From contig JAHBYY010000038.1 of the NCBI GenBank assembly GCA_019635715.1, positions 1-40,756 of the forward strand: DNA of 40,756 nucleotides, written 5' to 3'. A program made the position numbers and the translations under genes. This DNA is from Rhizobiaceae bacterium (lineage in GTDB: Bacteria; Pseudomonadota; Alphaproteobacteria; Rhizobiales; Rhizobiaceae). This document shows positions 15,058 to 35,764 of this stretch, piece after piece; positions within the stretch are counted from its first letter, which is position 1; each line of letters begins with the position of its first letter. The notes beneath the pieces were generated by a model, which did no database searches, was not told the DNA's origin, and worked only from the letters and a program-made list of their open reading frames with translations.

Positions 15058-15172
15058 TTGATTTCCTATCGATACCGGAATTCAGAACCGGCTTGAAGCG
15101 TGTCGCGTCGTGGCGGATTCATTTCGGCGCCAGTCAGCATCGTCGCACGCGATTGATTTTTACTCGAATACC

Positions 15173-15280
15173 AATGCATGTCGCCCGAAAGTGGGAACCG
15201 GTTTCGGGACAACGACATGCATCAAACCAAGAACTTAATGCGCTGCGCCTGAGTCCAATTGGACGCGACGCGCTTTAATG
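15173..15280 (+). repeat. RIME1-like intergenic mosaic element, two palindromes
   Basis: The first palindrome is 15173-15224 (gcatgtcg...cgacatgc ends). The second, about 15236-15280, is centred on the perfect 12-bp palindrome gtccaattggac (15253-15264) with ttaa ends. Together they span about 108 bp, the size and two-palindrome design I recall for the rhizobial RIME1 element. It sits between the convergent DUF4926 and DUF2333 genes. A partial reverse copy is at 12451-12502. Confidence 0.7.
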
Positions 15281-18532: not shown

Positions 18533-20443
18533 TCAAGCATTCCACAGTCCCTTCGCCTTCAGTGCCTCCATCTCCTTCGCCGCGCGCTCGCGCAGCTTGG
18601 CGTCACGCAGCAGCTTGGAGACGGCCACGTCGTCGGACTTGTCGGAGTAGCGGAATTCGGAATCGGCGTAGCGGTTGATCTCCTGCATGACCATCTCCAT
18701 CGAGAAGGGGCCGCGCAGCTCTTCGATCATCGCCTTTTTCTCGTCGTAGCCCTTGTGCATGAAGGCCTCAGGCGTGGCGAACCAGTCGTCGGGCAGTTCG
18801 AAATCCATGGCCCGCATCTTGATCGCGTCGGTGACGTTCTTGATGGCGCGGCCGGTGAAGCGCGGCTCGGCCTCCTTGATCATGTGGAGATAGGTGCCGA
18901 CATCCTCGAGCGTCCGCGGCTCGCCGTTCTCCTTGATGAAACGCTCGTAGACCTTCATCAGCCCGTCTTCCTGGGGCCTGGCGTGATCCTCATAGGCCTC
19001 TGCCACGGCGCGCTGGATCTGCTGCGCCGCATAGAGGTCGTGCGCGCCGAGCGGGATCTCGTGGTTCTTGCCGGCGAGCAGCACGAAGATGTCGATGTAG
19101 TCGTCGCGGGTCTGCGGGCCGTCGACCAGCCAGCGGGCGCCGGCCCTCTGGCGCAGCGCATCGTCGACATTTTCCGGATAGTTGGAGAACATGCCGAAGG
19201 CGCAATTGCCGCGCACCACCGTGCCGGCGCCGGCAAAGGCGTCCATCAGCACGCCGGTGATCTCCTGCTGGCCGGCCGAGGCGCGGTCGTCGGAGCGCTT
19301 GGCGGCCACCTGGTCGATGTCGTCGATCGTGCCGAAGCCGATGGCGCGTGGGTTCAGCACATTGTTGATGAACTGCCGGCAGTTCTGGCCCGATTTGCCC
19401 TGGTAGGAGGAGATCTGGTCGACGCCGAAATTCTCGTAGACGAAGGAATAGCCGGCGACCTGGCAATAGCCGTTGACCAGCCCGGCGATCATCTGGATCA
19501 GCGTCGTCTTGCCGGTGCCCGGCGCGCCGTCGCCGATGAAGGTGAACAGGAAGCCGCCGAGCTCGACGAACGGGTTCTTTTCCCGGTCGAAATCGTAGGC
19601 CATCAGCATCTTGGCGAGCTTCAGCGACTGGTATTTGGCGATGTGGTTGCCGACAACCTCCTCCGGCTTGCGGAAGGTCATGACCAGCGGTTTTGATTTC
19701 TTGCCCGGTGCGACGTCGAAGCCGTCGAGGGTGAAATCGTCGGCGTCGATGCGGACATGGGCGTCCTCGAAGGCGCCGAGCCCGTCGAAGCGGCCCTTTC
19801 GCGACAGCAGCCCGTCGATGGCGACGCGCGCGAAGGCTTTGGCGCGGGTCGACAGGTCGGCCTCGTCCTTGGCGCCCTTGAGTGCCGTATCGAGCCCGGC
19901 GATCAGCGACTTCACCGCATCCTGCGGCGTGTCGAACAGGAAACTCGGCTCGGCGACATCGTTCGGCGCCTCGCCGTCGGCGCCGATCAACTGCCAGAGA
20001 TAGGAAGCGAGCGAGAAGGCGGCGACATAGGCGGAGGCCGCGAGCAGCTTCTTGAAGTGGGCTGCATCCTCGCCCTGCAGGGGGGCCTGCGCGTTGCGCG
20101 CCTGCAGGGCCTCGAGATCGGTGCCGCGGCCGAACACCTCGCCGACGGCCAGCGCGATGGCGATGCCGCGCCGCGCCCGGAAGAGCAGGGCATGCTGGCC
20201 GATGCCCATCAGCGTGTCGTCCGGGCGGATCGCCTGGACGGTCTTGGCGAGCTCGACCTCCCGGGTGCGCCGCACCGAACCGGTGGAGACGGTCGAGACG
20301 AAGCGGCGGTTGGTGCCGGCCAAGGCCGTTCCCGATTGACCGCCGGCATCTTCCAGCACGACGACGCGGGTGATGAAGGACTGCGCGATGGCGCGATGCT
20401 TCTCGATGTCGGCTTCCGGGATCGTGGTCAGCCCGGCGTCCAT
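18533..20443 (-). CDS. AAA-family ATPase
   Basis: A 636-aa protein. The N-terminal 290 residues are specific to this group, with one hydrophobic stretch near 134-152. An AAA ATPase core follows: Walker A GDGAPGTGKTT (304-314), Walker B region AIGFGTIDDIDQ (368-378), sensor-like MFSNYPENVDD, and a helical lid to about 560. It is one of a set of co-oriented genes with the 382-aa, coiled-coil, DUF6638 and DUF2333 genes, so it may power remodelling of a shared complex at the inner membrane. The start codon region overlaps the end of the DUF559 gene by 16 bp. Substrate unknown. Confidence 0.85.
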   Translation of the reverse strand: MDAGLTTIPEADIEKHRAIAQSFITRVVVLEDAGGQSGTALAGTNRRFVSTVSTGSVRRTREVELAKTVQAIRPDDTLMGIGQHALLFRARRGIAIALAVGEVFGRGTDLEALQARNAQAPLQGEDAAHFKKLLAASAYVAAFSLASYLWQLIGADGEAPNDVAEPSFLFDTPQDAVKSLIAGLDTALKGAKDEADLSTRAKAFARVAIDGLLSRKGRFDGLGAFEDAHVRIDADDFTLDGFDVAPGKKSKPLVMTFRKPEEVVGNHIAKYQSLKLAKMLMAYDFDREKNPFVELGGFLFTFIGDGAPGTGKTTLIQMIAGLVNGYCQVAGYSFVYENFGVDQISSYQGKSGQNCRQFINNVLNPRAIGFGTIDDIDQVAAKRSDDRASAGQQEITGVLMDAFAGAGTVVRGNCAFGMFSNYPENVDDALRQRAGARWLVDGPQTRDDYIDIFVLLAGKNHEIPLGAHDLYAAQQIQRAVAEAYEDHARPQEDGLMKVYERFIKENGEPRTLEDVGTYLHMIKEAEPRFTGRAIKNVTDAIKMRAMDFELPDDWFATPEAFMHKGYDEKKAMIEELRGPFSMEMVMQEINRYADSEFRYSDKSDDVAVSKLLRDAKLRERAAKEMEALKAKGLWNA

Positions 20444-20991
20444 GGCGACTCTCCTTGTTCTGGGCCCGACGAGATTTCGCCCCCTCCGGCCCTTCGGGCC
20501 ACCTCCCCCGCTTCGCAGGGGAGGATTGCCGGCCGCACCGCCGATCCTCCCCCGTTTACGGGGGAGGTGGCCCGAAGGGCCGGAGGGGGCGCGGCAGTCT
20601 TGCTGCCCTCACCCTCGACGGATTCCGCCAGCCGGCGCAGTCTCTCACGGGCTGACCATTCGATCTCCCTCAGCGCCCCGTCAAAGGCATTGCGATCCAG
20701 AATGTCGGTGGCCGGAATGCGAAGCACCTCGATGCCGCGTGTCCCGAGCCAATCGTCCCGGATGCGATCCTGCGCCAAACCGCTCTCCACGAAATGATGG
20801 GCGCCATCGACTTCGACGGCCAAGCGCGCGCAAGCGCAGTAGAAGTCCAGCACGTACTGTCCTGCGGGGGGCTGGCGGCGGAAGCCCGCCAATCGCAACT
20901 TGCGCAGTTGGTCCCATAGCAGCACTTCCGGAAGCGACATGTCAGCCCGGAGTTCCTTCGCACGCCGGATCGTGCGGTCAGGTCCGCGCAT
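20428..20991 (-). CDS. DUF559 endonuclease-like protein with repeat-encoded tail
   Basis: A 187-aa protein. Residues about 10-115 are a complete DUF559 domain, a Vsr-like PD-(D/E)xK fold with Asp49 (YVLDF), Glu60, Asp62 and His65 (VEVDGAHH). From about residue 134 to 171 the frame runs through the inverted repeat at 20479-20590, giving a Pro/Gly/Ala-rich tail unlikely to fold. It ends 16 bp inside the AAA gene. The start is ATG 20991, 33 bp after the 382-aa gene. DUF559 proteins are small solitary nuclease-like proteins of unknown role; catalytic residues look intact. Confidence 0.85.
   Translation of the reverse strand: MRGPDRTIRRAKELRADMSLPEVLLWDQLRKLRLAGFRRQPPAGQYVLDFYCACARLAVEVDGAHHFVESGLAQDRIRDDWLGTRGIEVLRIPATDILDRNAFDGALREIEWSARERLRRLAESVEGEGSKTAAPPPALRATSPVNGGGSAVRPAILPCEAGEVARRAGGGEISSGPEQGESPWTPG
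20479..20590. repeat. Long inverted repeat, subfamily C
   Basis: The arms 20479-20526 and 20544-20590 are near-perfect reverse complements around about 17 nt. Each arm holds two hairpins: GGCCC-ttc-GGGCC and CCTCCCC...GGGGAGG. It is read in frame by the 3' end of the DUF559 gene. Architecture matches the elements at 22206, 24755, 29858, 32191 and 35207. Confidence 0.9.
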
Positions 20992-21023
20992 CGCCGGCCC
21001 ATCTCCCGGTGGAATCTGGAACG

Positions 21024-22172
21024 CTACACATCGCTCACCACCTGTCCGTTCGACAGGATGTGAACCTTGTAGCCGTCGAAGATCTTCTGCGTTTCGCCCG
21101 CCGCGTAGAGCGCCTGGTAGGCCTCGTGCGGCACCAGCGCGTGCTTCTCGTAGGACGACACGCCCTGACGCGCCGCCTCGAGGTCGTCCGTTTCGATGTG
21201 AAATTCCTGCGTCGTCTTTTCGCTCGACCACAGCCCCTTGCGGCCGGCCCGCTCGCCCTTCGAGAACACTTCCTGGATCGTCCAGGTCAGCAGCCAGGCA
21301 TTGGCGGGCTTGCGGACCTTCGACAGGACTTCCGTGACCACCGAATTGTTCTCGGTGATGCCGGCCGAATAGAAGGGTCCGAGCACGACGCGGCGCAACT
21401 GCTTCGGATGCAGCGTCTCGAAATCCTTGTCGAGATTGGTGGCGATGGTCACCGGCGACAGCGTGTAGGCCGAGTTCTTCTCGGTGAAGTCGTCGAACCG
21501 GTGCGCCAGCTCGGGATTGAGCAGCCCGTCGACCGGCAGCGGAATCTCGACCTTGGTCTTTAGCTTGCCGTTGTCGTCGACCAACTGCTGGATCATGGCG
21601 GGCGAGGAATCCTCGATCGTCGCCATATAGATCAGCGGCAGGTTGGCGCTTCCGTCGAACGTCGCCCAATGCACCAGATAGTAGGGCCGCATCGTCTTGG
21701 GATTGACCGAGACCTTGACCGTCTGCGCCAGGTTGAACGGGGAAAAAACCTGTCCGGAGCTGACGTCCTCGAGGTAGAGGCGCTCCGCCATCGACCGCTG
21801 CAGGTCTTCCGGAAAGGCCTTGTGGCGCAGGATGAAGTCCGCCATCTCGCTCCGCAGCTCCTCCGGCTCGGGGATGGCGGCGATGCGCTTCTCGGCGGTG
21901 CGGCGGTCGTTCTCCAGCTCGAGCAGGTTCTGGTAGACGGGAAAACCGCTCTCGGCGCGGGAGATGCGGAACCTGTCCATGAAGCCCAGCCGGTTGTTCC
22001 AGCAGGCGAACGAGATTTCCAGCCGGGCGATGTAGTCCGCCACCACCTTGGCGACGATGCCGTGGCGATAGAGCGGCGAGCGATCGTCGCGCATGAAGAT
22101 GTTGAGGCCGTCGAGCGCGGCGGAGATCGCCGAGAAATAGCGGATTGCGGGGTCGTCGGCGGCAGGAGTCAT
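21024..22172 (-). CDS. Conserved protein of unknown function in the AAA ATPase module
   Basis: A 382-aa soluble protein, not recognised. It has no signal peptide or membrane segment; the N-terminal 120 residues are mostly helical (EISFACWNNRLGFMDRF, RRTAEKRIAA), and the rest is mixed alpha/beta with a ending HILSNGQVVSDV. It lies between the coiled-coil gene and the DUF559/AAA genes on the same strand, so it probably works with the ATPase. The start is ATG 22172. Confidence 0.7.
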   Translation of the reverse strand: MTPAADDPAIRYFSAISAALDGLNIFMRDDRSPLYRHGIVAKVVADYIARLEISFACWNNRLGFMDRFRISRAESGFPVYQNLLELENDRRTAEKRIAAIPEPEELRSEMADFILRHKAFPEDLQRSMAERLYLEDVSSGQVFSPFNLAQTVKVSVNPKTMRPYYLVHWATFDGSANLPLIYMATIEDSSPAMIQQLVDDNGKLKTKVEIPLPVDGLLNPELAHRFDDFTEKNSAYTLSPVTIATNLDKDFETLHPKQLRRVVLGPFYSAGITENNSVVTEVLSKVRKPANAWLLTWTIQEVFSKGERAGRKGLWSSEKTTQEFHIETDDLEAARQGVSSYEKHALVPHEAYQALYAAGETQKIFDGYKVHILSNGQVVSDV

Positions 22173-22205
22173 GCGAGGCTTCCCGGCGAACCCGAGACCC
22201 TACGT

Positions 22206-22361
22206 ACCCCCCTCTGTCCTGCCGGACATCTCCCCCTCAAGGGGGGAGATCGGCTGGCTGGGCCGGCCTGGCCAATCGTGGGGATCGCAGGTGGAACTTC
22301 GAAGTCAAAGCTGCCGATCTCCCCCCTTGAGGGGGAGATGTCCGGCAGGACAGAGGGGGGT
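22206..22361. repeat. Long inverted repeat, subfamily A, copy 1
   Basis: The 49-nt arms 22206-22254 and 22313-22361 are perfect reverse complements, with a 58-nt spacer. Each arm has hairpin 1, TGTCC-tgcc-GGACA, and hairpin 2, ATCTCCCCC...GGGGGAGAT. It fills the gap between the coiled-coil gene and the 382-aa gene. Confidence 0.95.
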
Positions 22362-22410
22362 GAGAAAGAGCGCAATGCTTTCTTCTGAAGGCGGCTGAGC
22401 GCGTCGAATA

Positions 22411-23502
22411 TTAAGATTGCTGCACGTAGTCGGAGGCGTTGTGCTTTCTCAGCACCTCCTCGAAGCGCCGCGCAAAAGCGTCGTCGGCGAGCTTCTTGCG
22501 GCGCTGGATGTCGGCCGAGGCGACCATGTTCTTCTCGTGCAGTTCCAGGAGATCGCCGATATGCTTCTGCGAGGCGGCGCCGATGCCGGCCATCGTCTCC
22601 TCGGCGGTGGTGTCGACCTTGGAGCCCAGCGTGTTGATCTTGTGCGCCACTTCCTGCTGGGCCGCCGTCTTCAGCGAGTCCTCCAGGGCCTTGTAGAGAA
22701 CGATGCGCTGCTCGGTGTCGATGGTCAGCTTGTTGATCAGCGTGTTCTGCGCGGCGATCTGGTTGTTGAGCGAATCCACGAAGGTCTGGAACATCGAGGT
22801 GTAGCGTTCCAGCGTCTGGCTTTCGGCGAGCAGTTCCTGCTCCTTCGCCTGCTTCTCATTGTACTCGGTCGCCAGCTTGGAGCGGTCGCCTTCGAGCTGC
22901 GTGCGCTCCGTCTGGTTGGTCGAGGCGGCGATCCTGTTCTCGATGTCGAGGAGCAGCGGATTCAACTCCTCGATGCGCTTCTGCACGCCGGTGAGGTTTT
23001 CGATCGTCGCCTTGCGGCGCTCGATGACCGTGCCGAGGCTGAGTTCCGAGGTCTTGTAGCGTTCGGCCAGAACCTGCTTCTGCGCCTTGAGGATGCCGAC
23101 GATGGTGTCGGACTTCGACAGAAGCTCCTGGAGGTTGCCGGCCAGCGACATGTTGCGCACGCGGTCGGTGCGCATGCGCTGCTTGGATTCCTCGGAGAAG
23201 ATGCCGACGAAGCTCTCCCAGCCGGTGAAGCTCTTCATGTTCTCGAATTCGGAGCCGAAGGCGTTGGTCGCATCCTCGAGGCCGATGATCAGGTCGGCGA
23301 TGTTGCTCTCCATCACCTTCTGCTGGTTGATGACATCCGAGATGCGCGCATTCTCGATGTCGAATTCGGCGGCGCCGATCTTGGCATCCGTCGTCGCGAT
23401 CTTGTCGAGAACCGTGCCGGACTGCTCGATCTTCGAGCGCATCTCCTCGACCACCTTCTGGGTCTTGGCAATCTCGGCATCGAAATTCTGCAATGTCGCC
23501 AT
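22411..23502 (-). CDS. Long coiled-coil protein
   Basis: A 363-aa protein, almost entirely predicted coiled coil: heptad-like Glu/Lys/Gln-rich sequence from residue 5 to 350, with short breaks near SFTGWESFVGIF (about 95-106). It has no signal peptide or membrane helix and no cysteines. It resembles proteins labelled cell-surface or TelA-like in related genomes, but no TelA hallmark could be confirmed. It heads the minus-strand series with the 382-aa and AAA proteins, as a possible structural partner. The start is ATG 23502 with GGGAGAG upstream; the longer open frame is antisense to choX. Confidence 0.75.
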   Translation of the reverse strand: MATLQNFDAEIAKTQKVVEEMRSKIEQSGTVLDKIATTDAKIGAAEFDIENARISDVINQQKVMESNIADLIIGLEDATNAFGSEFENMKSFTGWESFVGIFSEESKQRMRTDRVRNMSLAGNLQELLSKSDTIVGILKAQKQVLAERYKTSELSLGTVIERRKATIENLTGVQKRIEELNPLLLDIENRIAASTNQTERTQLEGDRSKLATEYNEKQAKEQELLAESQTLERYTSMFQTFVDSLNNQIAAQNTLINKLTIDTEQRIVLYKALEDSLKTAAQQEVAHKINTLGSKVDTTAEETMAGIGAASQKHIGDLLELHEKNMVASADIQRRKKLADDAFARRFEEVLRKHNASDYVQQS

Positions 23503-23790
23503 GATGTCTCTCCCGCAACCGGCATCGGTGCGGGCGAATATAGGGGCCTGCCATGGCGAATGAAAGACGCCATCTCCCTCGCGCGCGGCCCGCGGCAAGT
23601 CCCCTTGCCGCATACGGAATCCGGCAGTTCCCGGGATCGGCTCCTGTCGCCATCTGACTGAATCTTGCCGCGTCTTGGAACGGCATTCCGCTTGAAACGG
23701 CTTCAGAATGATGTTTGGCTTGGAAGACAGGCCTGCCGCGGTATGGGCGCGGCGCCGTGACGAACACAAAACAACAATCGGGAGAACTTC

Positions 23791-24726
23791 ATGTCGTTCA
23801 CCAAACTGCTCGCCGCATCGGTCGGCGCCGCCACGCTGCTCGCGTCGAGCGCCGCCTTCGCCGGGGATGCGGATAGCTGCAAGAAGGTCCGCCTGTCCGA
23901 CGTCGGCTGGACCGACATCCAGGCGACCACCGGCGTCGCCTCGGTGCTGCTGACCGCTCTGGGCTACCAGCCCGAGGTCATCCAGCTCTCCGTCCCCGTG
24001 ACCATGGCCTCGCTGAAGAACAACGATCTCGACGTCTTCCTCGGCAACTGGATGCCGTCGATGACGGCCGACATCAAGGAATATACCGACGAGGGCTCGG
24101 TCGAGACGATCAGCGAGAACCTGTCGGGCGCCGGCTACGGCATCGTCGTGCCGGACTACGTCGCTGCCGGCGGCGTCAAGACGCTCACCGACCTCGGCAA
24201 GTTCAAGGACAAGTTCAGCGGCAAGATCTACGGCATCGAGGCCGGCAACGACGGCAATCGCATCATCCTCGACATGATCTCCAAGCCGGAGAACAATCTC
24301 GAAGGCTTCGAGCTCGTCGAAAGCTCCGAGGCGGGCATGCTCACCCAGGCGGAGCAGTCGATCAAGGACCAGCAGTGGATCGCCTTCCTCGGCTGGACGC
24401 CGCATCCGGTCATGGGCGCGATGAACCTCGCCTATCTCGACGGGATGGGCGACTCCGGCTTCGGCGCCGCGACCGTGCACACCAATGTGCGCAAGGGCTA
24501 TCTGACCGAGTGCCCGAATGTCGGCGGCTTCATCAAGAACCTGTCCTTCTCGCTCGACATGGAAGGCGAGATCATGGACGCCATCCTCCAGGGGGCCGAC
24601 GCCAACACGGCGGCGACCGACTGGCTGAAGAAGAACCCCGATGCGGCCACCCCGTGGATCGCCGGCGTGACCACCTTCGACGGCGGCGATGCGGCGGCTG
24701 CGGTCAAGACGGCGCTGGGGGGCTAG
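23791..24726 (+). CDS. choX: Choline ABC transporter substrate-binding protein
   Basis: A 311-aa periplasmic binding protein. The signal peptide is residues 1-24 (AFA|GDA). The OpuAC-type domain contains DVGWTDIQATTG near the N-terminus, FLGNWMPSM and FLGWTPHPVMG; the tryptophans in these segments form the aromatic cage for the quaternary ammonium in rhizobial ChoX. It is first in the operon with choW and choV, whose type confirms a choline (or betaine) importer feeding osmoprotection and catabolism. GGGAGAA precedes ATG 23791. A long inverted repeat separates it from choW. Confidence 0.93.
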   Translation: MSFTKLLAASVGAATLLASSAAFAGDADSCKKVRLSDVGWTDIQATTGVASVLLTALGYQPEVIQLSVPVTMASLKNNDLDVFLGNWMPSMTADIKEYTDEGSVETISENLSGAGYGIVVPDYVAAGGVKTLTDLGKFKDKFSGKIYGIEAGNDGNRIILDMISKPENNLEGFELVESSEAGMLTQAEQSIKDQQWIAFLGWTPHPVMGAMNLAYLDGMGDSGFGAATVHTNVRKGYLTECPNVGGFIKNLSFSLDMEGEIMDAILQGADANTAATDWLKKNPDAATPWIAGVTTFDGGDAAAAVKTALGG

Positions 24727-24754
24727 TACCGAGGCAAGTAACGAGAGCGTGACG

Positions 24755-24873
24755 CTGCCCCTCATTCCCCTGCCGGGACTTTCTCCCCGCAAGGACGGTG
24801 AGAAAGGGCAAGCGGCGACGTTGGCGACCCCTCTCCCCGTTCTTCACGGGGAGAGGGTAAGGGTGAGGGGCGG
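24755..24873. repeat. Long inverted repeat, subfamily B, copy 1 (choX-choW spacer)
   Basis: Outer arms gcccctca (24757-24764) and tgaggggc (24864-24871) close two inward units. The left unit has CCCC-tgcc-GGG, and the right has CTCTCCCCG...CGGGGAGAG. Bases 24828-24873 are identical over 46 nt to 35282-35327. It nearly fills the choX-choW gap. Confidence 0.9.
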
Positions 24874-24907
24874 CATTTTGCCCTTAGAACCAGCCTGAGG
24901 GGGCACG

Positions 24908-25762
24908 ATGGATCCGATCTCGAAATTCCTCGCCGCCTACAAGATTCCGGTCGGGCCCTGGGGGAAGGCGTTCTTCACCTTCCTGACCGACAATTTCAAC
25001 GCGATCTTCCGCGGCTTCTCCAGCGGCCTGAACTTCCTGCTCGACGGCATCGTCGACGGGCTCCTCTACCTGCCGCCGATCGTCGTGGTGCTGGCGGTCG
25101 CGGCGCTCGCCTGGTGGTTGCAGAAGTCGCGCGGCCTGGCGCTCGGCGTGGCGCTCGGCCTGCTGTTCATCATCAACCAGGGCCTGTGGAAACAGACCGT
25201 CGAGACCCTCGTGCTGGTGGCGGCCGCGGCGGCCGCGTCGATGGCGATCGGCGTGCCGCTCGGCATCTGGGCGGCACACAAGCCGAAGGTCTACCGGGTC
25301 ATGCTGCCGGTGCTCGACCTGATGCAGACGCTGCCGACCTTCGTCTACCTCATCCCGGTCCTGACGCTGTTCGGCCTCGGCAACGCGCCGGGCCTCATCG
25401 TCACCATCATCTTCGTCATCCCGACGGCCGTCCGTCTGACCCATCTCGGCATGACCAGCATTCCGAGGGCGATCGTCGAGGCCGGCGAATCCTTCGGAGC
25501 CACCAGGAGCCAGCTCCTCTGGAAGGTGGAACTGCCGGCGGCGCTGCCGACCATCATGGCCGGACTGACGCAGTGCATCATGCTGTCGCTGTCCATGGTG
25601 GTGTTCGCGGCGCTCATCGGGGCGGGCGGGCTCGGCACCGAGATCAACCGGGCGCTCGGCTCGCGCAAGATCGACCTCGGCCTTGAGGCCGGACTGGCGA
25701 TCGTCGTGCTCGCCATCGTTCTCGATCGGATGACGCGCATCGGCGTCGGAGGCAAGAAATGA
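24908..25762 (+). CDS. choW: Choline ABC transporter permease
   Basis: A 284-aa inner-membrane permease of the OpuAB/ProW type with about six helices in residues 50-275. The coupling-loop EAA motif region is IVEAGESFGATRSQLLWKVELP. The 3' end overlaps choV by 4 bp (ATGA). With ChoX and ChoV it imports choline. It starts at ATG 24908 just after the repeat element, with TGAGGGGG upstream. Confidence 0.93.
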   Translation: MDPISKFLAAYKIPVGPWGKAFFTFLTDNFNAIFRGFSSGLNFLLDGIVDGLLYLPPIVVVLAVAALAWWLQKSRGLALGVALGLLFIINQGLWKQTVETLVLVAAAAAASMAIGVPLGIWAAHKPKVYRVMLPVLDLMQTLPTFVYLIPVLTLFGLGNAPGLIVTIIFVIPTAVRLTHLGMTSIPRAIVEAGESFGATRSQLLWKVELPAALPTIMAGLTQCIMLSLSMVVFAALIGAGGLGTEINRALGSRKIDLGLEAGLAIVVLAIVLDRMTRIGVGGKK

Positions 25763-26940: not shown

Positions 26941-26950
26941 CGGCCGGCGG

Positions 26951-27610: not shown

Positions 27611-27846
27611 GTGGGTCCTCCCGAGGCCGGTGGTGAACTGGCCCCTTGATACCACTGTCACGCGCCCGCCGAAAAGGCATGGCGTTTGCCGTGGTCCCTG
27701 CGGTGACGGTCGTCGATTTCCCGGCGTGGCCCGGTCGCGAAACGGAACGGCCGCGGGGCGCCGCCACCGTGGCGGTTGCCCGGACACCGGCGATGGACGG
27801 GTCGGCTCCGGCATGGCAAAACGCGGCATCGAAATGTTGCAGGCCG

Positions 27847-28155
27847 ATGCCGGAACACACCGTCCTCAATCCCAAGGCGCAGGTGAAGCCCAAGGTGGAG
27901 CGGCCCAGGCTCCACAAGGTCATCCTGATCAATGACGACTTCACGCCGCGCGACTTCGTCGTCACCGTGCTGAAGGGCGAGTTCCGGCTGAGCGAGGACC
28001 AGGCCTATCGCGTGATGATCACCGCGCATCGAAAGGGAGTCTGCGTCGTCGCCGTGTTCCCGAAGGACGTCGCCGAGACCAAGGCGGCGCGCGCCACCGA
28101 GATGGGCGTGCGGAAGGGCTATCCGCTGATGTTCACCACCGAACCGGAGACGTGA
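27847..28155 (+). CDS. clpS: ATP-dependent Clp protease adaptor ClpS (ClpS2 type)
   Basis: A 102-aa adaptor that delivers N-end-rule substrates to ClpAP. The ClpS core LHKVILINDDFTPRDFVVTVL, the M-x-AH-x-G block (MITAHRKGVC) and KAARATEMGV are present, ending LMFTTEPE. No clpA follows; in many alphaproteobacteria clpA is beside ClpS1, while the second, ClpS2, stands alone, so this is probably the second paralog. The start is ATG 27847; the in-frame region upstream is not conserved. Confidence 0.9.
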   Translation: MPEHTVLNPKAQVKPKVERPRLHKVILINDDFTPRDFVVTVLKGEFRLSEDQAYRVMITAHRKGVCVVAVFPKDVAETKAARATEMGVRKGYPLMFTTEPET

Positions 28156-28355
28156 GCGGCATCCGGCCGCCTTCATACACTTCACGACAACTCCCGCGTG
28201 TCTGCCGGAGGTTCGTGCAAGAACAGTCGCGAATGACCGGCAAGTATTTCCCCTGCCTCGCAATTGATCTGGCAAGCAGCCGGATTCGCGAATAGTCTCG
28301 CTTCTGGGCGCATGGGCCGAAGCACCGCTTCGGGTTCCGCTTCCGGAGTGTTGCG

Positions 28356-29369
28356 ATGGGCAAGAAGGTCTGGGCGTCCTCCTCCAATGTCGGGCTGGCG
28401 ATCTGCGCCGGGGGCGCGGAGGACGAGACCGATCCCAGCCGCGGCGATCTCTTCTGGGACACCGGCATCATGTTCGGCTCGCTCAAGGAACTCGCCGACA
28501 GGCTGACGACGATGGGCGAGAAGGTCAGCAGCCTCGCCATCTGCGCGCATGGCGACCCGGGAATCGTCGACATCGACAGCGTGTTTCCGTCCAACAGCTC
28601 GCTGACCGGCGCGATGACCTCGGACAAGGAGATGGAACTGAAGGCCAAGTGCCTGTCCAACGACACTTTCACCAGATACGCCAACGATCTCGGCCGCATC
28701 GGCTCGGCGATGGAGGACGGCGGCGGTATCCGCTTCATGTCCTGCAACATGGGCTCCGGCGAGCCGGGCGCCAAGCTGCTCAACCGGCTGAGTTCCGGTC
28801 CATGGAGCAAGCAATATGTCACCGGCTTCACACGGATCGGCTCGATCACCTCCAAGATCTATATGGGCAAGTGCATGCTGCCCGGCCTCAAATTCGGCAT
28901 CGACAACACGGCGCCGTCGAGCAGCCAGCAGCAGTTCGATGCGCGTGTGCAGGCTCTCGTCAAGGAGCCGTGGGCCGACGTCGGCAGTCCGGTCGCCAAG
29001 ATTTCGAGGAACGGCGCGCTGATCAAGAACCCCGACCAGGCCGATTACGGCAACACCTTTTACGGCTCATGGGTGTTCGAGGTCGGCGGCAAGTCGACGG
29101 TGATCTTCTTCGAGAAGAACGAATACAACAGCGACTACGGCCCGTGCGCCTGGGCCGACAACAGCAGCCCCGCGGTGAAGCGGCACAAGGGTCAGTGGCT
29201 CAGGCTCGGCGGCCTCAACTATTCCTTCTCGTTCGCCAAGGGCGAGGAGCCGAAGCCCGAATATGCCGGGGCGGACTACATCTTCAAGCTCGACACCGCC
29301 GGTCCGACCGGGCGCATCATGATCAACCGGGCCGAAAAGGGCCAGTTCAAGATCTGGAACAGCCGCTGA
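28356..29369 (+). CDS. Protein of unknown function, possible clan CD (caspase-like) fold
   Basis: A 337-aa protein, not assigned to a named family. The first 150 residues show a hydrophobic strand ending in His65-Gly (LAICAHGDPG) and a second strand ending in Cys130 (IRFMSCNMGSGEPG), the layout of the catalytic dyad of caspase-like peptidases and of DUF4347-type domains. The C-terminal 130 residues are beta-rich and aromatic. No signal peptide is visible. It stands alone, convergent with the cupin gene. A peptidase role is inference; the fold could be inactive. Confidence 0.7.
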   Translation: MGKKVWASSSNVGLAICAGGAEDETDPSRGDLFWDTGIMFGSLKELADRLTTMGEKVSSLAICAHGDPGIVDIDSVFPSNSSLTGAMTSDKEMELKAKCLSNDTFTRYANDLGRIGSAMEDGGGIRFMSCNMGSGEPGAKLLNRLSSGPWSKQYVTGFTRIGSITSKIYMGKCMLPGLKFGIDNTAPSSSQQQFDARVQALVKEPWADVGSPVAKISRNGALIKNPDQADYGNTFYGSWVFEVGGKSTVIFFEKNEYNSDYGPCAWADNSSPAVKRHKGQWLRLGGLNYSFSFAKGEEPKPEYAGADYIFKLDTAGPTGRIMINRAEKGQFKIWNSR

Positions 29370-29381
29370 CCGTGCGCGGTC
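29368..29381. terminator. Short hairpin between convergent genes
   Basis: GACCG-tgcg-CGGTC lies between the stop codons at 29369 and 29389. It could act in both directions, but there is no T tract. Confidence 0.3.
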
Positions 29382-29388
29382 GCCGCTG

Positions 29389-29748
29389 CTATTCTCGCGA
29401 AGATGTCTTGCCGCCGATGACGCCCGAGGTCAGCCCGCCGCGATAATCCTCGCGGACCGGCGCGAAGGCGTCGAGGATGCGGCAGTCGGTGATCGCGCGG
29501 CCGGAGTGCAGCGCGTTCGACGGCACCGTGGCGACGCTGCCAGGGCCGCAGATGCGGGTAACTCCGTCGACCGTCAGCTCGAACGTGCCCTCATAGATAT
29601 GCGCGACCTGCTCATGGACATGTCTGTGGGCCGGCAGCAGCGCCCCGGCGTCGATGCGCCAGAGCACGAAGCTCATCGCGTCGGAGTGCTGCACCTTGCC
29701 GTGGAAGCCGGGGATGGGGGTCTGTTCCTCGATCGCGTCCCACTGCAT
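29389..29748 (-). CDS. Cupin domain protein
   Basis: A 119-aa single-domain cupin. Metal-binding motif 1 is G-x5-HxH in GALLPAHRHVHEQ (His41, His43, His45/Glu46), and motif 2 is PGSVATVPSNALHS with His81. Such small proteins may be sugar or dioxygenase-type enzymes or binding proteins; no substrate can be read. The start is ATG 29748 with GGAGGG upstream. From 29749 to 30060 there is no gene, only the inverted repeat at 29858-29992. Confidence 0.85.
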   Translation of the reverse strand: MQWDAIEEQTPIPGFHGKVQHSDAMSFVLWRIDAGALLPAHRHVHEQVAHIYEGTFELTVDGVTRICGPGSVATVPSNALHSGRAITDCRILDAFAPVREDYRGGLTSGVIGGKTSSRE

Positions 29749-29857
29749 CCTGTGCCCTCCGTCTTCGTTGCGAGAAGCAGAATGCATCCCGAGGTCGGAA
29801 ACGCAAGGCCGGGGGAGTGGGAGCGAAACGAACGGCCACCAGCCTTAATCTAGGGTG

Positions 29858-29992
29858 CTGCCCCTCATCGCCCTGCCGGGCACCCCTCCCCGTGAACGGG
29901 GAGAAGAGGGCTGGCCGCCACGACAGCGCTTGAAAGAGAGCGTCTCTCTCCCCGCTTGCGGGGAGAGATGCCCGGCAGGGCAGTGAGGGGCA
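29858..29992. repeat. Long inverted repeat, subfamily B, copy 2
   Basis: Two inward units: the left one starts tgcccctca and holds GCCC-tgcc-GGGC plus CTCCCCG-tgaa-CGGGGAG; the right one, reverse-complemented, has the same plan with CTCCCCG-caag-CGGGGAG. The spacer is about 30 nt. It lies between the cupin gene and the minus-strand cluster ending at 30061. Confidence 0.9.
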
Positions 29993-30060
29993 ACACCCGC
30001 CCATCCAAGCGCCATGCAGCCGGTGTCAGCCAAGATGTGGCCAAGCGTTCGCGCCAGGCG

Positions 30061-32127
30061 TCACCGCCCCTCGCGGTACCACATGGTCCCCATCGCCAGC
30101 AGCAGCAGGGCGAGGCCGAAGAAGCCGCCGAACAGCGGAACCCGGTCGACCGACTTCAACACCGTGTCGCCGGTGGTGCGCAGGCCGATCCAGTCGCGTC
30201 CGGCCGCCGGTGCGGTGCCGCGCACCGGCACGATGGACGGCAGCGAGACGCCGCCCGCCGCCGCGATGCGCCGCACGCTGCCGCCGGTCGCCTCGGCCGC
30301 CGGGTCGAGGATGGCTTGCGTCGACACGGTATCGGCGAACTCCGGCGCATTGACCGGACCGATATGCGCCAGCGCGGTCAGGTCGCCATTGGCGATCTGG
30401 TAGAGTCCGATCTCGGTCGTCTCCAGGCTGCCGTTGAAGATGCCCGGTTCGGTCGGCGTCAGCGCGACGGTCAGCGACTTGCCCGACGGCGTGATCACCT
30501 GGGCCGCGCCCGGATCGTCGCTCATGGTCTGGCGGCGGATGTCGAGCACCATGCCGCGGCCGTCGGCGGTCAGGCGTTCCTCCTCCAGTTCCGGCTCCTT
30601 CATCAGCCAGTGGGCGATGCGCCGGTAGAGCGCGACATGCGGCCCGCCGCCCTCAAAACCGCGCGCCCAGAGCCAGCCCTGGTCGGACAGGAACATGCCG
30701 ACGCGGCCTTCGCCCTTGCGGTTGAGCAGCAGCAGCGGACGGTCGTCCGGCCCCTTCATCACCGCCATGCCCTCGGGCCGGTCGATGCCGATCAGGCGGA
30801 ACCAGCGGCTCCAGTGCGGCGGCTCGGAGGCCGAGCCTTCGAGCCCGCGCGTCACCGGGTGGCGCCTCCCGAGGTCGGTGAGGCGCGGATAGAAGGCTCG
30901 TTCGAGGATGTCGCCCGTCGGAAGGCCGGGGAGGGTGGACATCAGCGGGGTGCGGGCGATGGAGGCCGCGCCGGCATATTCCGGTCCGGCGGCGATCAGC
31001 AGCGCGCCGCCCTTTTCGACATATTCGGCGATGTAGTCGTAGTAGAGGATCGGCAGCACGTCGCGGTGCTGGTAGCGGTCGAAGATGATCAGGTCGAAGT
31101 CCTGGATCTTCTCGACGAACAGCTCGCGCGTCGGGAAGGCGATCAGCGACAGTTCGTTGATCGGTGTCCCGTCCTGCTTCTCCGGCGGTCTCAGGATGGT
31201 GAAGTGGACGAGGTCGACCGAGGCGTCGGACTTCAGCAAATTGCGCCATGTGCGCTCGCCGGCATGCGGCTCGCCGGACACCAGCAGCACGCGCAGATTC
31301 TCGCGGATGCCATCCAGTACCGCGATGGCGCGGTTGTTGGTGTCGGTCAGTTCGCCCGGCAGGGGATCGATGGCGAGTTCGACGATGTTGCGCCCGGCCG
31401 TCGGGATGGTTAGCTGGAGGCGCATTTCGCGGCCGGTCGCTGCCTGTTCGACGCCGATCTGCTGGCCGTTCACCGAGACGCGCACCGCCACAGTGCCGTC
31501 GGCGCCGCCGGTGGCGATCACCCGGTAGCTCATGTCGACCGGCTTGCCGACGATGCCGAAGCGCGGCGCGTTCTCGAAGCGGATGCGCCGGTCCATCTCG
31601 TCTTCCTGGCCGGTCACCAGCGCATGGAGCGGCGCGCCGAGCGCGGCGGCGTCCTTGGGCACGTCGTGGACCTGACCGTCGGTGATCATGATCGCACCGC
31701 CGACGCGCGACGGCGGGACGTCGCGGAAGGCGCTTTCGAGACCTCCGAACAGGCGCGTCTGCGTCCGGTCGTCGGCGGCGTCGGCCTGACCCGCCTCGAC
31801 GACGCGCACGTCGAACTGTGGGAAGCGGGCCAGCCGCTCGCGCATGCCTTCGAGCGCGGCATCCGTCTCGGCGCGGCGGTCGCCGATGTCCTGGCTCTGG
31901 CTGCGGTCGACCACCAGCGCCACGACGCTCTTCAAAGGTTCGCGATCCTCGTCGAGGAACACCGGATTTATCAGGGCGGCAGCCAGGGCGACCAGGGCGG
32001 CGAGCCTGAACAGCGCGCCGCGCTGGCGCAGCCACAGGCCGGCAAGCACGAGCAACGCCACTGGGGCGAGGATGACGGCCAGCCATGTCCACGACAGCAG
32101 CGGTTCGAAGGCGAGGGACCAGTTCAT
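30061..32127 (-). CDS. Membrane protein with glutamine-amidotransferase-like domain
   Basis: A 688-aa protein. N-terminal helices are at about 12-32 and 40-58 and one C-terminal helix at about 663-682; the region between is periplasmic or cytoplasmic, with an initial von Willebrand-like part (SVVALVVDRSQSQ, MITDGQVHD) lacking a full MIDAS triad, then a class I amidotransferase-like fold (DLIIFDRYQHRD, GGALLIAAGPEY). No nucleophilic cysteine is evident, so it is probably non-catalytic. This is the usual partner of BatA/DUF4159 and DUF58 genes in MoxR clusters. It is the last gene of the cluster. Confidence 0.8.
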   Translation of the reverse strand: MNWSLAFEPLLSWTWLAVILAPVALLVLAGLWLRQRGALFRLAALVALAAALINPVFLDEDREPLKSVVALVVDRSQSQDIGDRRAETDAALEGMRERLARFPQFDVRVVEAGQADAADDRTQTRLFGGLESAFRDVPPSRVGGAIMITDGQVHDVPKDAAALGAPLHALVTGQEDEMDRRIRFENAPRFGIVGKPVDMSYRVIATGGADGTVAVRVSVNGQQIGVEQAATGREMRLQLTIPTAGRNIVELAIDPLPGELTDTNNRAIAVLDGIRENLRVLLVSGEPHAGERTWRNLLKSDASVDLVHFTILRPPEKQDGTPINELSLIAFPTRELFVEKIQDFDLIIFDRYQHRDVLPILYYDYIAEYVEKGGALLIAAGPEYAGAASIARTPLMSTLPGLPTGDILERAFYPRLTDLGRRHPVTRGLEGSASEPPHWSRWFRLIGIDRPEGMAVMKGPDDRPLLLLNRKGEGRVGMFLSDQGWLWARGFEGGGPHVALYRRIAHWLMKEPELEEERLTADGRGMVLDIRRQTMSDDPGAAQVITPSGKSLTVALTPTEPGIFNGSLETTEIGLYQIANGDLTALAHIGPVNAPEFADTVSTQAILDPAAEATGGSVRRIAAAGGVSLPSIVPVRGTAPAAGRDWIGLRTTGDTVLKSVDRVPLFGGFFGLALLLLAMGTMWYREGR

Positions 32128-32190
32128 CGGTCGCGCCCCCGGTCCGTTCGCAACCAGTGGAAGCTGCTGGACGATTTGCGCTCTTCGTTG

Positions 32191-32344
32191 CCCCCCTCTG
32201 GCCTGCCGGCCATCTCCCCCTCAAGGGGGGAGATCGGCAGCTTAGGTCTTGTTGCACTTCCGACGATGTTGCCGATGGGCGAGATTGGCGCGGCCAGCCG
32301 ATCTCCCCCCTTGAGGGGGAGATGGCCGGCAGGCCAGAGGGGGG
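32191..32344. repeat. Long inverted repeat, subfamily A, copy 2
   Basis: The 48-nt arms 32191-32238 and 32297-32344 are perfect reverse complements with a 58-nt spacer, as in the copy at 22206. Hairpin 1 is TGGCC-tgcc-GGCCA where copy 1 has TGTCC-tgcc-GGACA: a paired, structure-preserving change. It separates the amidotransferase-like gene from the DUF4159 gene. Confidence 0.95.
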
Positions 32345-32365
32345 TGTGGCCGAAGTCGAGGAACC

Positions 32366-35179
32366 TCACTGCCCGAGCCTCTCCAGCAGCACCGGCACAT
32401 GCACCTGGTCGGACTTGTAGTTGCCGGTCAGCATGTACATCACGATGTTGACGCCGGCGCGCAGCGCGTAGGTGCGCTGCAGCGGGTCGTTGGGCACGGT
32501 CGGCAGCATCGGATCGCCATGTTCGTCGACGGCCCAGGCGCCGGCCATGTCGTTGGCGGTGATCATGATCGGCGACACGCCGTCACCTGTTCGAACGGGG
32601 CGGTTCTCCGTGTTGCTGGCTTCGAGCGACGCCTCGACCCACAGGGGCCCGCCGCCGTAGCGGCCGGGAAACTCCGGCATGATGAAGAACGACTTGGTCA
32701 GGACGTGGTCTTCCGGCACGGGCTCGAGCGGCGGGACGTTCAGGCTGGAGAGGATGTCGCGCAGGCGCTGTGTCGCCGGGCTGGTCGAGCCTTCATTGAG
32801 GCCGCTGGCATATTCGTCGCGCGTGTCGAAAAGCACGGTGCCGCCCTGCTGCATATAGGCGTCGACGCGGGCGATGGCGGCTTCGGTCGGCATCGGAGCG
32901 CCGGGGTCGATCGGCCAGTAGATGATCGGGTAGAAGGAGAGCTCGTCCTTCGAGATGTCGACGCCGGCCGGCTGGCCGGGCTCGAGCGCCGTCTTCTCGA
33001 TGAGGAAGCGCGTCAGTCCGGTCAAACCGGCGCGGCTGATCGAATCGACGCTGGAATTGCCGGTGATCACATAGGCGAGGCGGGTGGTGGAGATCGCCTC
33101 GATCGCCTCCTGGTCGCCGGGTTTCGAATCATCGGCCATTGCGGGTGCGACGACGGCGCCCGCCAGGCAAAGCACGGCGATCATCGCGGCGGCGCGCGCC
33201 GCCGCCCGACCGCGCCGCCGGGCGAAGACGCCGCCCATCCAGAAGACGGCAAGGGTGTCGAGCACCATCAAGGCGAGTGCTGCAGCCACGAGCGGCCCCT
33301 TCAGATCCCGCGATTCGTCCGCAGCATAGCTGATTTCGCTCACCGGCACCGGAATCTGCGGGCGGGCCAGCGGCGCGAGCGTCGCGCCGGGCGCCAGCAG
33401 ATTGTGGGCGAAGACGCCTTCCTCGCCGCCGTAGAGGCCCGGCGGGTTCTCGATCGTCACCGGCAGCGCGGCATTCGCCGCCACGATCGGCCGGGCATCC
33501 GGCGTCGCAGGCACCAGCATGCCGTCGGCGGAAATCAACCGGTAGGGCGCCAGCGCGCCGGCGCGTCCGTCGGTGCCGGCGACGGCGCCCTGGTTGCGCG
33601 ACAGTTGGACGAGGCGGCGCAGCATCTCGACGAAGGTGCCGGAGATCGGCAGGTTCGACCAGGTCGCCTGCGGCGTGATGTGGAACAGCACGACCGTGCC
33701 CTTTTGGCGCGTCGCACCGGTCACCAGCGGAGTGCCGTCGGCAAGGCTCGCCCAGGTGCGTTCGGCGATGTCGGGCGTCGGCTCGGCGAGGATCTGGCGC
33801 GTCACCGTCACGCCTTCCGGCGCCGGCAGGTCGGCGAAGGGTCCACCGTCCGGGAAGTCGCTCACCGGCTGCGGCTCGGTCCACGACAGGGTGCCGCCGA
33901 GCGCGCGCTCGCCGGTGCGCAGGCGCACCGGCAGCAGGTCCTCGTCGGGCTCAGCCGCCGCGAGGCGGGAGCCGGCGAAACGCACCAGCGTGCCGCCGCC
34001 GCGGACCCAGGCGAGCAGTTGTGCGTGCGCCTCGGCCGGAATGGTGCCGACGTCGGCCATGACGATCATCGCCGGCTTCTGCCTGATGATCTCGGGGATC
34101 GAGACCGCCAGGTCGGGGTCGGGGGATTCGATGAGGTCGGCGAACGGCCGCAGCGCGGCGCGGATGTAGTAGACCGGCGACAGCAGCGGCTGCGCCTGGT
34201 CCGCCTCGGATTGCGAGATCAGCGCGACGCGCCGCCGCTTGGCGTTCTCGTCGAGGACGCGCAGGGCGGATGCCTGCGGCTCGCCGTCGACCGACACGCT
34301 GGCGAAATCGTTGCGCAGTTCGAACGGCACGCTGATCACGCCGGTCGTCGCGGGATCGCCCGGGCCGAAGGAGAGGGTCGCGTCGGCGATGCGGCGGCCC
34401 TTGTCGTCGAAGGCGCCGACCGTCACCTGTCGCGCCGACGGGTCGCCGCTCGGCCGCACCGCCGTGACCTTGAAGCCGTCCACCGCGTTTTCCGTTGCGG
34501 TCAGGCCGACCAGGCCGGGGCGGTTGGCCGAGGCCCAGATGACGCGGTTGATACGGGTGCCGAACAGCGTCGCGAATGCGCTCTCGTCGCTGCCGGCGGC
34601 GAGGCCGTCGGCCAGAACCGCGACATCCGCGCCCGGCATCTGCGCCAGCGCCTGCGATACGCGCTGGTAGACCGCCTGCCGGTCGACCGGAACCGGCCGC
34701 GGCTTGGCCGCCTCGAGATGCGCCAGGGCGCCGCGCGCATCGAACGCGCCGATGTCGGCATTCGGCTTCTCGGCGGTGAAGGCCAGCAGGATCGGCACGC
34801 CGCCGGCGTCCGCGTCGGAGATCAGGCGCTGCGCCGTCGCGACGCGGCGGTCCCAGTCGGGCGCGCTGGCCCAGCCATTGTCCATGACGACGGCCAGGCC
34901 GCTGCCGCTCGATTCCACCCGCTCGCGCGGATTGAACACCGGATCGGCCAAGGCGAAGATGACGAGCGCCGCCATGACCAGCCGCAGCAAGGTCAGCCAC
35001 CAGGGGCTCTTGTTCGGCGTTTCCTCGCGTTTCAGCACCTGCGCGAGGATGCGCAGCGGCGGAAAGATCTCGGTCTGCGGCCTTGGCGGGGTCAGCCGCA
35101 GCAGCCACCAGATCACCGGCAGCGCCACCAGGCCCCAGAGAATGGCGGGAAGGCCGAAGGAGAGCGGCAGCCAGGTCAT
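32366..35179 (-). CDS. BatA/DUF4159 domain membrane protein
   Basis: A 937-aa protein. The N-terminal BatA domain (1-90) has two helices around 8-27 and 60-80. A von Willebrand-like part follows (LAVVMDNGWASAPDW), then a large region, a helix near 630-650, and a second hydrophobic stretch ending AVVAPAMADD. The last 220 residues are DUF4159 (RLAYVITGNSSVDSISRAGL, PIIYWPIDPGAP, GTVLFDTRDEY). The C-terminal half is presumably periplasmic. Function unknown; it works in a MoxR/DUF58 context. The start is ATG 35179. Confidence 0.85.
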   Translation of the reverse strand: MTWLPLSFGLPAILWGLVALPVIWWLLRLTPPRPQTEIFPPLRILAQVLKREETPNKSPWWLTLLRLVMAALVIFALADPVFNPRERVESSGSGLAVVMDNGWASAPDWDRRVATAQRLISDADAGGVPILLAFTAEKPNADIGAFDARGALAHLEAAKPRPVPVDRQAVYQRVSQALAQMPGADVAVLADGLAAGSDESAFATLFGTRINRVIWASANRPGLVGLTATENAVDGFKVTAVRPSGDPSARQVTVGAFDDKGRRIADATLSFGPGDPATTGVISVPFELRNDFASVSVDGEPQASALRVLDENAKRRRVALISQSEADQAQPLLSPVYYIRAALRPFADLIESPDPDLAVSIPEIIRQKPAMIVMADVGTIPAEAHAQLLAWVRGGGTLVRFAGSRLAAAEPDEDLLPVRLRTGERALGGTLSWTEPQPVSDFPDGGPFADLPAPEGVTVTRQILAEPTPDIAERTWASLADGTPLVTGATRQKGTVVLFHITPQATWSNLPISGTFVEMLRRLVQLSRNQGAVAGTDGRAGALAPYRLISADGMLVPATPDARPIVAANAALPVTIENPPGLYGGEEGVFAHNLLAPGATLAPLARPQIPVPVSEISYAADESRDLKGPLVAAALALMVLDTLAVFWMGGVFARRRGRAAARAAAMIAVLCLAGAVVAPAMADDSKPGDQEAIEAISTTRLAYVITGNSSVDSISRAGLTGLTRFLIEKTALEPGQPAGVDISKDELSFYPIIYWPIDPGAPMPTEAAIARVDAYMQQGGTVLFDTRDEYASGLNEGSTSPATQRLRDILSSLNVPPLEPVPEDHVLTKSFFIMPEFPGRYGGGPLWVEASLEASNTENRPVRTGDGVSPIMITANDMAGAWAVDEHGDPMLPTVPNDPLQRTYALRAGVNIVMYMLTGNYKSDQVHVPVLLERLGQ

Positions 35180-35206
35180 CGAGACGACCTTTCAGCGGTT
35201 CCGGCT

Positions 35207-35327
35207 CTGCCCCTCATCCCCCTGCCGGGACCTTCTCCCCGTCTTGACGGGGAAAAGGGGGCCAGCCGCGGCGCTGGTGCCCCCCTCTCCCCGTTCTTCA
35301 CGGGGAGAGGGTAAGGGTGAGGGGCGG
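35207..35327. repeat. Long inverted repeat, subfamily B, copy 3
   Basis: The left unit holds CCCC-tgcc-GGG and CTCCCCG-tcttga-CGGGG; the right unit 35282-35327 is identical over 46 nt to 24828-24873. It ends 10 bp past the DUF559 stop codon and begins 27 bp before the DUF4159 start. Confidence 0.9.
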
Positions 35328-35336
35328 GACGGGAGG

Positions 35337-35753
35337 TCACGAGCGCGCCTCCCGATAGTCGCGCGCCGCAACGAAGCGAAGGTCGGGTGCTGAGATGTCG
35401 CAGTCCAGACGGCCTTCGATGGCTGCCAAAATCGTTTCCAAGGCGCTTGACCGCGCCCGAAGCACGTCCACGTTCCACAGTCTCAGCACGGACCAGCCTT
35501 CAGACAGCATGAAAATGTCGCGCAGCCGGTCGCTGTGGCTGCCGGCATGCTGGCTGCCGTCTATCTCCACGACAAGCCACGATTGGCGACACGCAAAATC
35601 GGCGAAATAGTGCCCGATCGGCAACTGCCTGACGAATTTGTGGCCGTTGAGGCGTCGGTCTCGGAGCTCCGTCCACAACGCCGACTCAGCGTCGTTGTCC
35701 ACCTTGCGCAAGGATCGCGCCCGGTTCGTCCTGGCGGTCTGTGGGCCTCGCAT
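35337..35753 (-). CDS. DUF559 endonuclease-like protein
   Basis: A 138-aa protein, second DUF559 member of the window. It keeps the putative active-site pattern: Asp52 (YFADF), Glu63, Asp65 and His69 (VEIDGSQH). Its sequence is clearly diverged from the copy at 20428, so this is not a recent duplication. It is placed between the DUF58 gene (11 bp upstream) and an inverted repeat (10 bp downstream), splitting the MoxR cluster. The start is ATG 35753; the upstream frame is antisense-frame noise. Confidence 0.85.
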   Translation of the reverse strand: MRGPQTARTNRARSLRKVDNDAESALWTELRDRRLNGHKFVRQLPIGHYFADFACRQSWLVVEIDGSQHAGSHSDRLRDIFMLSEGWSVLRLWNVDVLRARSSALETILAAIEGRLDCDISAPDLRFVAARDYREARS

Positions 35754-35764
35754 CAGGTCGCCTC

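Follow-up and report, generated by a model that had tools for sequence, protein, structure and literature searches.

The window analysed here, a stretch of 40,756 nucleotides (nt) that forms contig JAHBYY010000038.1 of the Rhizobiaceae bacterium assembly GCA_019635715.1, carries two genes of the DUF559 family (PF04480), each with a hairpin repeat element at its 3′ end. The first-pass annotation of this DNA had placed an element at both 3′ ends, and the repeat and open reading frame (ORF) maps agree. Gene 1 (20428–20991, minus strand) encodes 187 amino acids; its ORF passes through a repeat doublet and terminates inside the start of the next gene. The doublet (20478–20591; repeat elements and insertions are given here without a strand) is built from two arms of 33 nt each, 20478–20510 and 20559–20591, which are 100% complementary and separated by 48 nt. 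It lies inside the ORF, so the earlier reading of the element as codons 134–171 of the gene stands. Gene 2 (35337–35753, minus strand, protein P0001) encodes 138 amino acids and is followed by a two-hairpin element with short inverted ends (35207–35327), which adjoins the stop codon as claimed, at a measured distance of 9 bp. Folded as single-stranded DNA, both elements are stabler than their shuffles (z = −13.2 for gene 1 and −4.5 for gene 2). In profile searches both proteins match PF04480 above the curated cut-off, with E = 2.5e-21 for gene 1, the query for which started one codon ahead of the ATG, and E = 6e-32 for gene 2. The previously noted D...E-x-D-x2/3-H pattern is kept in both, in the form D...E-x-D-G-x2-H. 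No strand-transfer transposase domain was found in the two proteins, whose matches are PF04480 and a sub-threshold PF18741 only; PADLOC and NCBIfam returned weak or general matches, and Rfam gave no match within the window at gathering score.

DUF559 genes nearly always adjoin hairpin repeats and, in about half of cases, lie between them. This was observed in three samples of loci. The family sample comprises 65 of 91 PF04480 rows from 61 genomes of the same family, taken mostly by rank as 20-kb stretches; the 26 rows left out were mostly fragments, low scores or contig ends, rows from the window's own genome were examined separately with their flanks, and one of the 65 loci was excluded from the hairpin and arm tests for its short flank (hence n = 64). 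The named sample was obtained by scanning genome contigs with the single motif L[IV][VI]E[VLI]DGx[QS]H and keeping the best 80 of the 569 candidates that were confirmed, so the conservation of this motif within the sample is partly selected. Its loci come from named records of several phyla, mostly metagenome-assembled genomes (MAGs); one of them, L107, duplicates the locus of genome G051 and is counted among the 80 but excluded from unit–protein matching and from the counts of tail direction. The phylum sample was drawn by profile, with loci for 30 of the 46 genomes that had a match and 28 new ones tested (one of them, L268, is a fragment that was read on the wrong strand). As controls we used 600 genes drawn at random from the same stretches (1057 were available for the arm test) and PIN genes, represented by the best match in 30 of 49 genomes, of which L202 was excluded from the arm and hairpin tests (n = 29). 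Flank distances were measured from ORF ends for control genes and from domain ends for DUF559 and PIN.

A GC hairpin with a stem of at least 7, no more than 200 bp from the domain, was present at 58 of 64 family, 71 of 80 named and 27 of 28 phylum DUF559 loci, compared with 79 of 600 neighbouring genes and 0 of 29 PIN genes (same 61-genome set). Enrichment near DUF559 had been named beforehand as the point on which the proposed link could fail, and it was found in each of the three samples. The location at the 3′ end, by comparison, holds for the two window genes but not in general: hairpins occur upstream at 45/64 family and 62/80 named loci and downstream at 42/64 and 52/80, and with frequencies this similar the element is not 3′-specific. 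Both sides are occupied at 29/64 family, 43/80 named and 15/28 phylum loci. A stricter detector, limited to inverted repeats with arms of at least 16 that span no more than 260 bp, placed an element at a distance of up to 150 bp from 37 of 65 family loci (6.0% for 666 control genes) and from 28 of 80 named loci (7.1% for 408 control genes); because this detector misses single units, the hairpin test and an arm test across the gene were added. Among the loci that were negative for hairpins (9 named and 6 family), several (L117, L126, L128 and L131) show imperfect-stem units in their flanks. DUF559 was found in 2 of 50,697 phage records and in 40 of 72,556 plasmid records.

The arm test takes the best inverted match between the upstream and the downstream flank of a gene, with a score of at least 18. 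Such arms are present across 50 of 80 named and 26 of 64 family DUF559 genes, so that by this test 76 of 144 loci have candidate terminal inverted repeats; the window genes are not among them. The corresponding counts are 1/600 for neighbouring genes, 0/29 for PIN genes and 9/297 for mismatched pairs of DUF559 flanks. We take the underlying repeat unit to be a GC-rich hairpin with a CTCCC...GGGAG core and an asymmetric tail. The non-hairpin tail of the arm is directed toward the gene in 38 of 60 cases and balanced in 14. A separate arrangement occurs on contig C72 of genome G049 (41127–41741), where seven CTCCCC hairpins follow one another at a spacing of about 84–107 bp, resembling an array of bacterial interspersed mosaic elements.

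Compared between loci, gene and repeats act together as one cassette, in homology as well as in presence or absence. Genome G028 holds two cassette copies on two contigs, 94.7% identical over 509 bp, and their similarity stops at or in the units. Between the Mesorhizobium loci L098 and L103 homology is confined to the cassette, from AACTGCCRATCTCCCCC to GGGGGAGATTGGCAG, and ends at inverted sequences, and a deltaproteobacterial MAG (L126) and a Thiobacillus MAG (L134) have mainly the cassette in common, over 423 bp at 78%. In the Rickettsiales record L117, the DUF559 cassette lies in frame within a tRNA synthetase of class I that we read as valyl-specific; inspected by eye, this synthetase (L117:5281–8490) also contains a second, solo doublet further on, again in frame. 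At L123, L133, L165 and L169, open frames run from DUF559 through the unit into apparent host genes, which by eye are carboxypeptidase-like at L123 and L133.

The units also match the protein that they accompany. For this test the upstream flank of one locus was compared with the downstream flank of another, among context-unrelated pairs, in which the number of words common to the outer flanks does not exceed background. The inverted match scored at least 18 in all 15 pairs above 80% protein identity, in 101 of 141 pairs at 65–80% and in 61 of 450 at 55–65%, but in only 10 of 487 at 45–55% and 6 of 496 below 45%, these two lowest bins being samples of 3702 and 2207 pairs and the pairs above 65% deriving from 65 loci; with the threshold raised to 20, 88 of the 141 pairs at 65–80% remain. 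Earlier scores (at least 20 in 84% of 141 pairs, in 15/15, in 18% of 450 at 55–65% and in 2–3% below) may include homologous coding ends. As such ends could inflate the scores, the upstream-versus-downstream comparison replaced them, and the effect is smaller but holds. The same objection applies to a Mantel figure of 0.168 (0/500 permutations), on which nothing here is based, and a context filter that allowed at most 2 shared 6-mers retained 3 pairs above 65% identity.

Across genomes, hairpins are abundant where DUF559 is present. Over the 61 family genomes the median hairpin count is 36 in the 39 with DUF559 and 1 in the 22 without (Mann–Whitney, p = 1.3e-5), with G042, which has a 22-bit match, counted as positive; as a negative it moves the value to 4.4e-6. 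Of 150 phylum genomes, 26 of the 31 with a strong DUF559 match have at least 20 net hairpins, as do 13 of the 119 others (Fisher, p = 8.5e-15), 15 genomes with weak PF04480 matches only being counted among the latter. Repetitive extragenic palindromic (REP) sequences are tied to transposases, the REP-associated tyrosine transposases (RAYTs); Y1 transposases, the superfamily to which RAYTs belong, occur in 6 of the 61 family genomes, and a profile search found no Y1_Tnp in the window genome, which holds 333 CTCCCC-N2-10-GGGGAG hairpins (control, 0). Among the phylum genomes, G211 is a 2.6-Mb genome (87% complete) with 259 net hairpins and no DUF559 match.

The genome that contains the window has six PF04480 matches by profile search. 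Inspection by eye places an element at most about 100 bp from five of these genes; the remaining one is 79 bp away from the end of its contig. The unit that flanks the two DUF559 genes of contig C120 has 65 copies with at most 2 mismatches (reversed control, 0), often arranged as inverted doublets with a spacing of about 68 or 116 bp; eight copies are exact, and four of those flank the two C120 genes. Where both members of a solo C120 doublet were found, the tails face outward, the reverse of the arrangement around genes. Within the window, four solo elements lie without a DUF559 gene: an inverted doublet of the type B unit at 22206–22361, with arms of 49 nt that are 58 nt apart; a second type B doublet at 32191–32344; an element at 24755–24873 that is akin to the element of gene 2 and contains an identical 46-nt segment; and an inverted doublet at 29853–29998, with 52-nt arms that are 85% complementary. 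The inner stem of type B covaries, since a stem of at least 4 bp forms in 18 of 25 distinct inner sequences, whereas 500 re-paired sets average 9.7 and never exceed 16, and the structure of the unit may thus be under selection. Type B copy number is weakly linked to the presence of a type B DUF559 (p = 0.0012 over the 61 genomes, 0.034 when only DUF559-positive genomes are considered).

Judged by comparison with relatives, both window genes look inserted. The first-pass annotation had described them as insertions within gene clusters, an AAA module and a MoxR cluster, and the Pfam matches of the neighbours accord with this: gene 1 has an AAA gene on one side and a gene without a Pfam match on the other, and gene 2 lies between DUF58 and BatA/DUF4159 genes, with MoxR AAA_3 adjoining. 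Empty sites, which that annotation had suggested looking for in relatives, were found for both. In G063, the neighbours of gene 1 are both present without DUF559, 52 bp apart, and the stretch missing from that relative, DUF559 plus element, spans 20454–21039; in G061 a different gene takes the place of DUF559, and in G062 the site was not found. The second insertion (35181–35763, coordinates from G062) is missing in all three genus relatives, and in G062 the genes on either side overlap there by ATGA. The G061 gene at the site of gene 1 (C9:182148–182991, in L207), which we take to be Fic-like from its HPFxDGNGR motif, has its insertion spot in common with DUF559. A further site was followed through ten genomes of the genus of G051, inferred to be Aminobacter because the G051 locus is identical to L107: seven are occupied, two are reduced to a 3′ remnant and one is empty. 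One of the seven occupied copies (G070, in L226) has E-L-Y-G instead of E-x-D-G, probably a decayed active site within a still occupied cassette.

The predicted fold of DUF559 is Vsr-like. In a search with the AlphaFold model (predicted local distance difference test 79.6, predicted template modelling score 0.72), Foldseek places first 3hrl, a putative endonuclease-like protein, with E = 2e-7, the sole Protein Data Bank (PDB) chain under E = 0.001. Toxoplasma mitoribosomal proteins and PvuRts1I are among the chains that follow, both above the homing endonuclease I-Bth0305I (rank 6, probability 1.00, E = 0.019), and Vsr itself (1vsr) follows further down (probability 0.87, E = 0.24). A sequence profile run against the PDB likewise returns 3hrl (E = 1e-38) and I-Bth0305I (3r3p, E = 0.002); enterotoxin chains in the same search (E = 0.04–0.19) were taken as chance. 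Residues invariant across 63 DUF559 sequences include E23, E63, D65, H69 and R91, of which E63, D65 and H69 fall in the search motif.

Vsr nicks DNA at T:G mismatches and is tied to a methyltransferase, and YcjD is a DUF559 protein. A YcjD profile is reported to have detected Vsr (PMC1189080), and a DUF559 gene has been assigned to the EDxHD family (PMC9403480). Caulobacter VsrA holds a DUF559 domain; a methyltransferase mutant needs this protein for its DNA-damage response, and the authors of that study interpret it as a predicted Vsr-type repair enzyme (PMC12907096). Within the literature examined, this phenotype is the only experimental hint of a DUF559 activity.

We consider it probable that a large class of REP-like hairpin elements has DUF559 as its partner nuclease, which acts on the hairpins and promotes their copying. 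The physical association of gene and hairpins is shown by the data; that DUF559 cuts and mobilises the units, or maintains them, we infer from the match between unit and protein, the co-occurrence across genomes, the empty sites and the rarity of Y1 transposases. The units exist as solo inverted doublets genome-wide, and about half of the DUF559 loci have them as an inverted pair that encloses the gene, with tails mostly geneward. On this model DUF559 would recognise its own unit, as hairpin or as duplex, and nick or cut at it, and the break would then be filled by host repair or replication with a copy of the cassette or of a solo unit, much as in homing. We know of no strand-joining chemistry in a lone PD-(D/E)XK domain, so new copies would have to arise via host repair or replication. 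Solo units would be non-autonomous copies, as REP doublets (REPINs) are taken to be for RAYTs. A wider proposal, for which we see slightly less than an even chance, is that DUF559 and its units make up a class of mobile DNA new to science and present in several phyla, in which a single Vsr-like nuclease lacking transposase chemistry spreads hairpins by cutting and host-repair copying; this would explain many CTCCC...GGGAG palindromes of bacterial genomes, including the in-frame copies within host genes.

Several observations weigh against a partner nuclease. A clear inverted pair is missing at about half of the DUF559 loci, and both window genes have an element on the 3′ side only. Direct matches across the gene, a less specific signal, are raised too (20/80 named and 14/64 family loci against 2/600), which we attribute to the self-complementarity of the units, and the tail lies on the distal side of the arm in 8 of 60 cases. 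The pairs in the identity bins of the unit–protein test are not independent. The window genome has about 126 type B matches, yet none of its six DUF559 proteins is of type B (the assembly is 85% complete). In the copy-number tests, which are uncorrected for phylogeny or base composition in both family and phylum, 10 of the 22 family genomes without DUF559 have more than one hairpin, with up to 97; the 13 of 119 phylum genomes that reach 20 net hairpins without a strong match include one with 259; and 5 of the 31 DUF559-positive phylum genomes have few. Target-site duplications and exact ends, sought in the window's own genus, in the genus of G051 and between cassettes, gave no secure answer, the relatives being 76–86% identical at the insertion sites and too diverged for reading ends.

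The main rival explanation makes DUF559 a cargo gene beside or between units that are moved by another enzyme or by replication slippage. It would account for the hairpin-rich genomes without DUF559 and for the regularly spaced array in G049 C72, and it accords with the general knowledge that a PD-(D/E)XK nuclease domain alone has no joining activity. Against it, other bracketed genes are rare (1/600 neighbours and 0/29 PIN genes, no genome-wide search of other families having been made); with the match of unit and protein and the rarity of Y1 transposases, we regard this explanation as unlikely. A second rival takes the solo units as targets, spread by other means, into or beside which DUF559 homes by break repair; in its favour, the homing endonuclease I-Bth0305I is among the nearest solved relatives, and the two C120 genes are flanked by a unit with many solo copies. 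Homing alone leaves unexplained why the copy number of units tracks the presence of DUF559, and we hold it to be decidedly unlikely. The patchy presence of DUF559, its empty sites and remnants, and the copy with a changed E-x-D-G all resemble a dispensable mobile gene, which makes it quite improbable that DUF559 is a host-kept, Vsr-like repair nickase or hairpin processor with the repeats as its substrates or regulators rather than its progeny, despite the Vsr-like fold and the role of Caulobacter VsrA in the DNA-damage response (PMC12907096). Ordinary terminators, or insertion hot-spot hairpins that gather near any inserted gene, can be set aside almost entirely, for although hairpins lie downstream of 56/600 and upstream of 29/600 control genes, as terminators would give, and the strict detector finds an element within 150 bp of 1/30 and within 250 bp of 2/30 PIN genes, PIN genes score 0/29 in the hairpin test, DUF559 hairpins are about as frequent upstream as downstream, and the arms match across the gene.

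The partner-nuclease reading has its closest counterpart in the REP–RAYT systems (REPtrons and REPINs), the anatomy of which serves as the comparison (PMC2817692). The parallel had been drawn in the first-pass annotation, with a Vsr-like fold in place of the transposase, and it is supported. Both have dispersed GC-rich hairpins, inverted doublets, a correspondence between repeat type and protein type, and a small gene bracketed by inverted units, which for DUF559 is the case at about half of the loci. They differ in the enzyme, as DUF559 is predicted to be a Vsr-like PD-(D/E)XK nuclease and RAYTs are HUH/Y1 transposases; in the GTAG/GTGG head beside the palindrome, seen in none of the window-genome units inspected by eye; and in the distribution of the DUF559 system across several phyla, which sets it apart. 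EDxHD homing endonucleases such as I-Bth0305I share with DUF559 the fold and a detectable sequence kinship, whereas the hairpin units beside DUF559 have many solo copies. No intron was recognised around the window DUF559 genes, given the lack of an Rfam match and the position of the copies between genes that adjoin each other in relatives; no search was made for inteins. CGTC-tagged palindromes and Rickettsia palindromic elements are likewise short palindromes able to sit inside genes, and we claim no family identity with them. Units of the CCTTCTCCCC...GGGGAGAAGG type in the family set resemble the rhizobial RIME (Rhizobium-specific intergenic mosaic element) repeats, which are not known to be linked to a nuclease gene.

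Among the literature matches listed, judged by titles and the starts of abstracts, no paper links DUF559 to hairpins. According to PMC3733652, there is a second large class of REPs that apparently has no transposase of its own, and within the literature examined RAYTs are the only enzymes tied to bacterial REP repeats. The data suggest that DUF559 is a hitherto unrecognised enzyme behind a common type of bacterial repeat. A second, unrelated enzyme class for such repeats would point to a role for a nuclease family that is so far uncharacterised and would provide orphan repeats with an enzyme, and it would allow repeat movement to be tested directly.

Two further inverted repeats of the window lie apart from these elements. 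A distinct repeat at 12453–12504 and 15171–15222, away from DUF559, has 52-nt arms that are 94% complementary and a CCGGTTCCCACTTTCGGG core, and an inverted pair of 40 nt at 1497–1536 and 1692–1731, 83% complementary with 155 nt between the arms, is unlike the CTCCC units.

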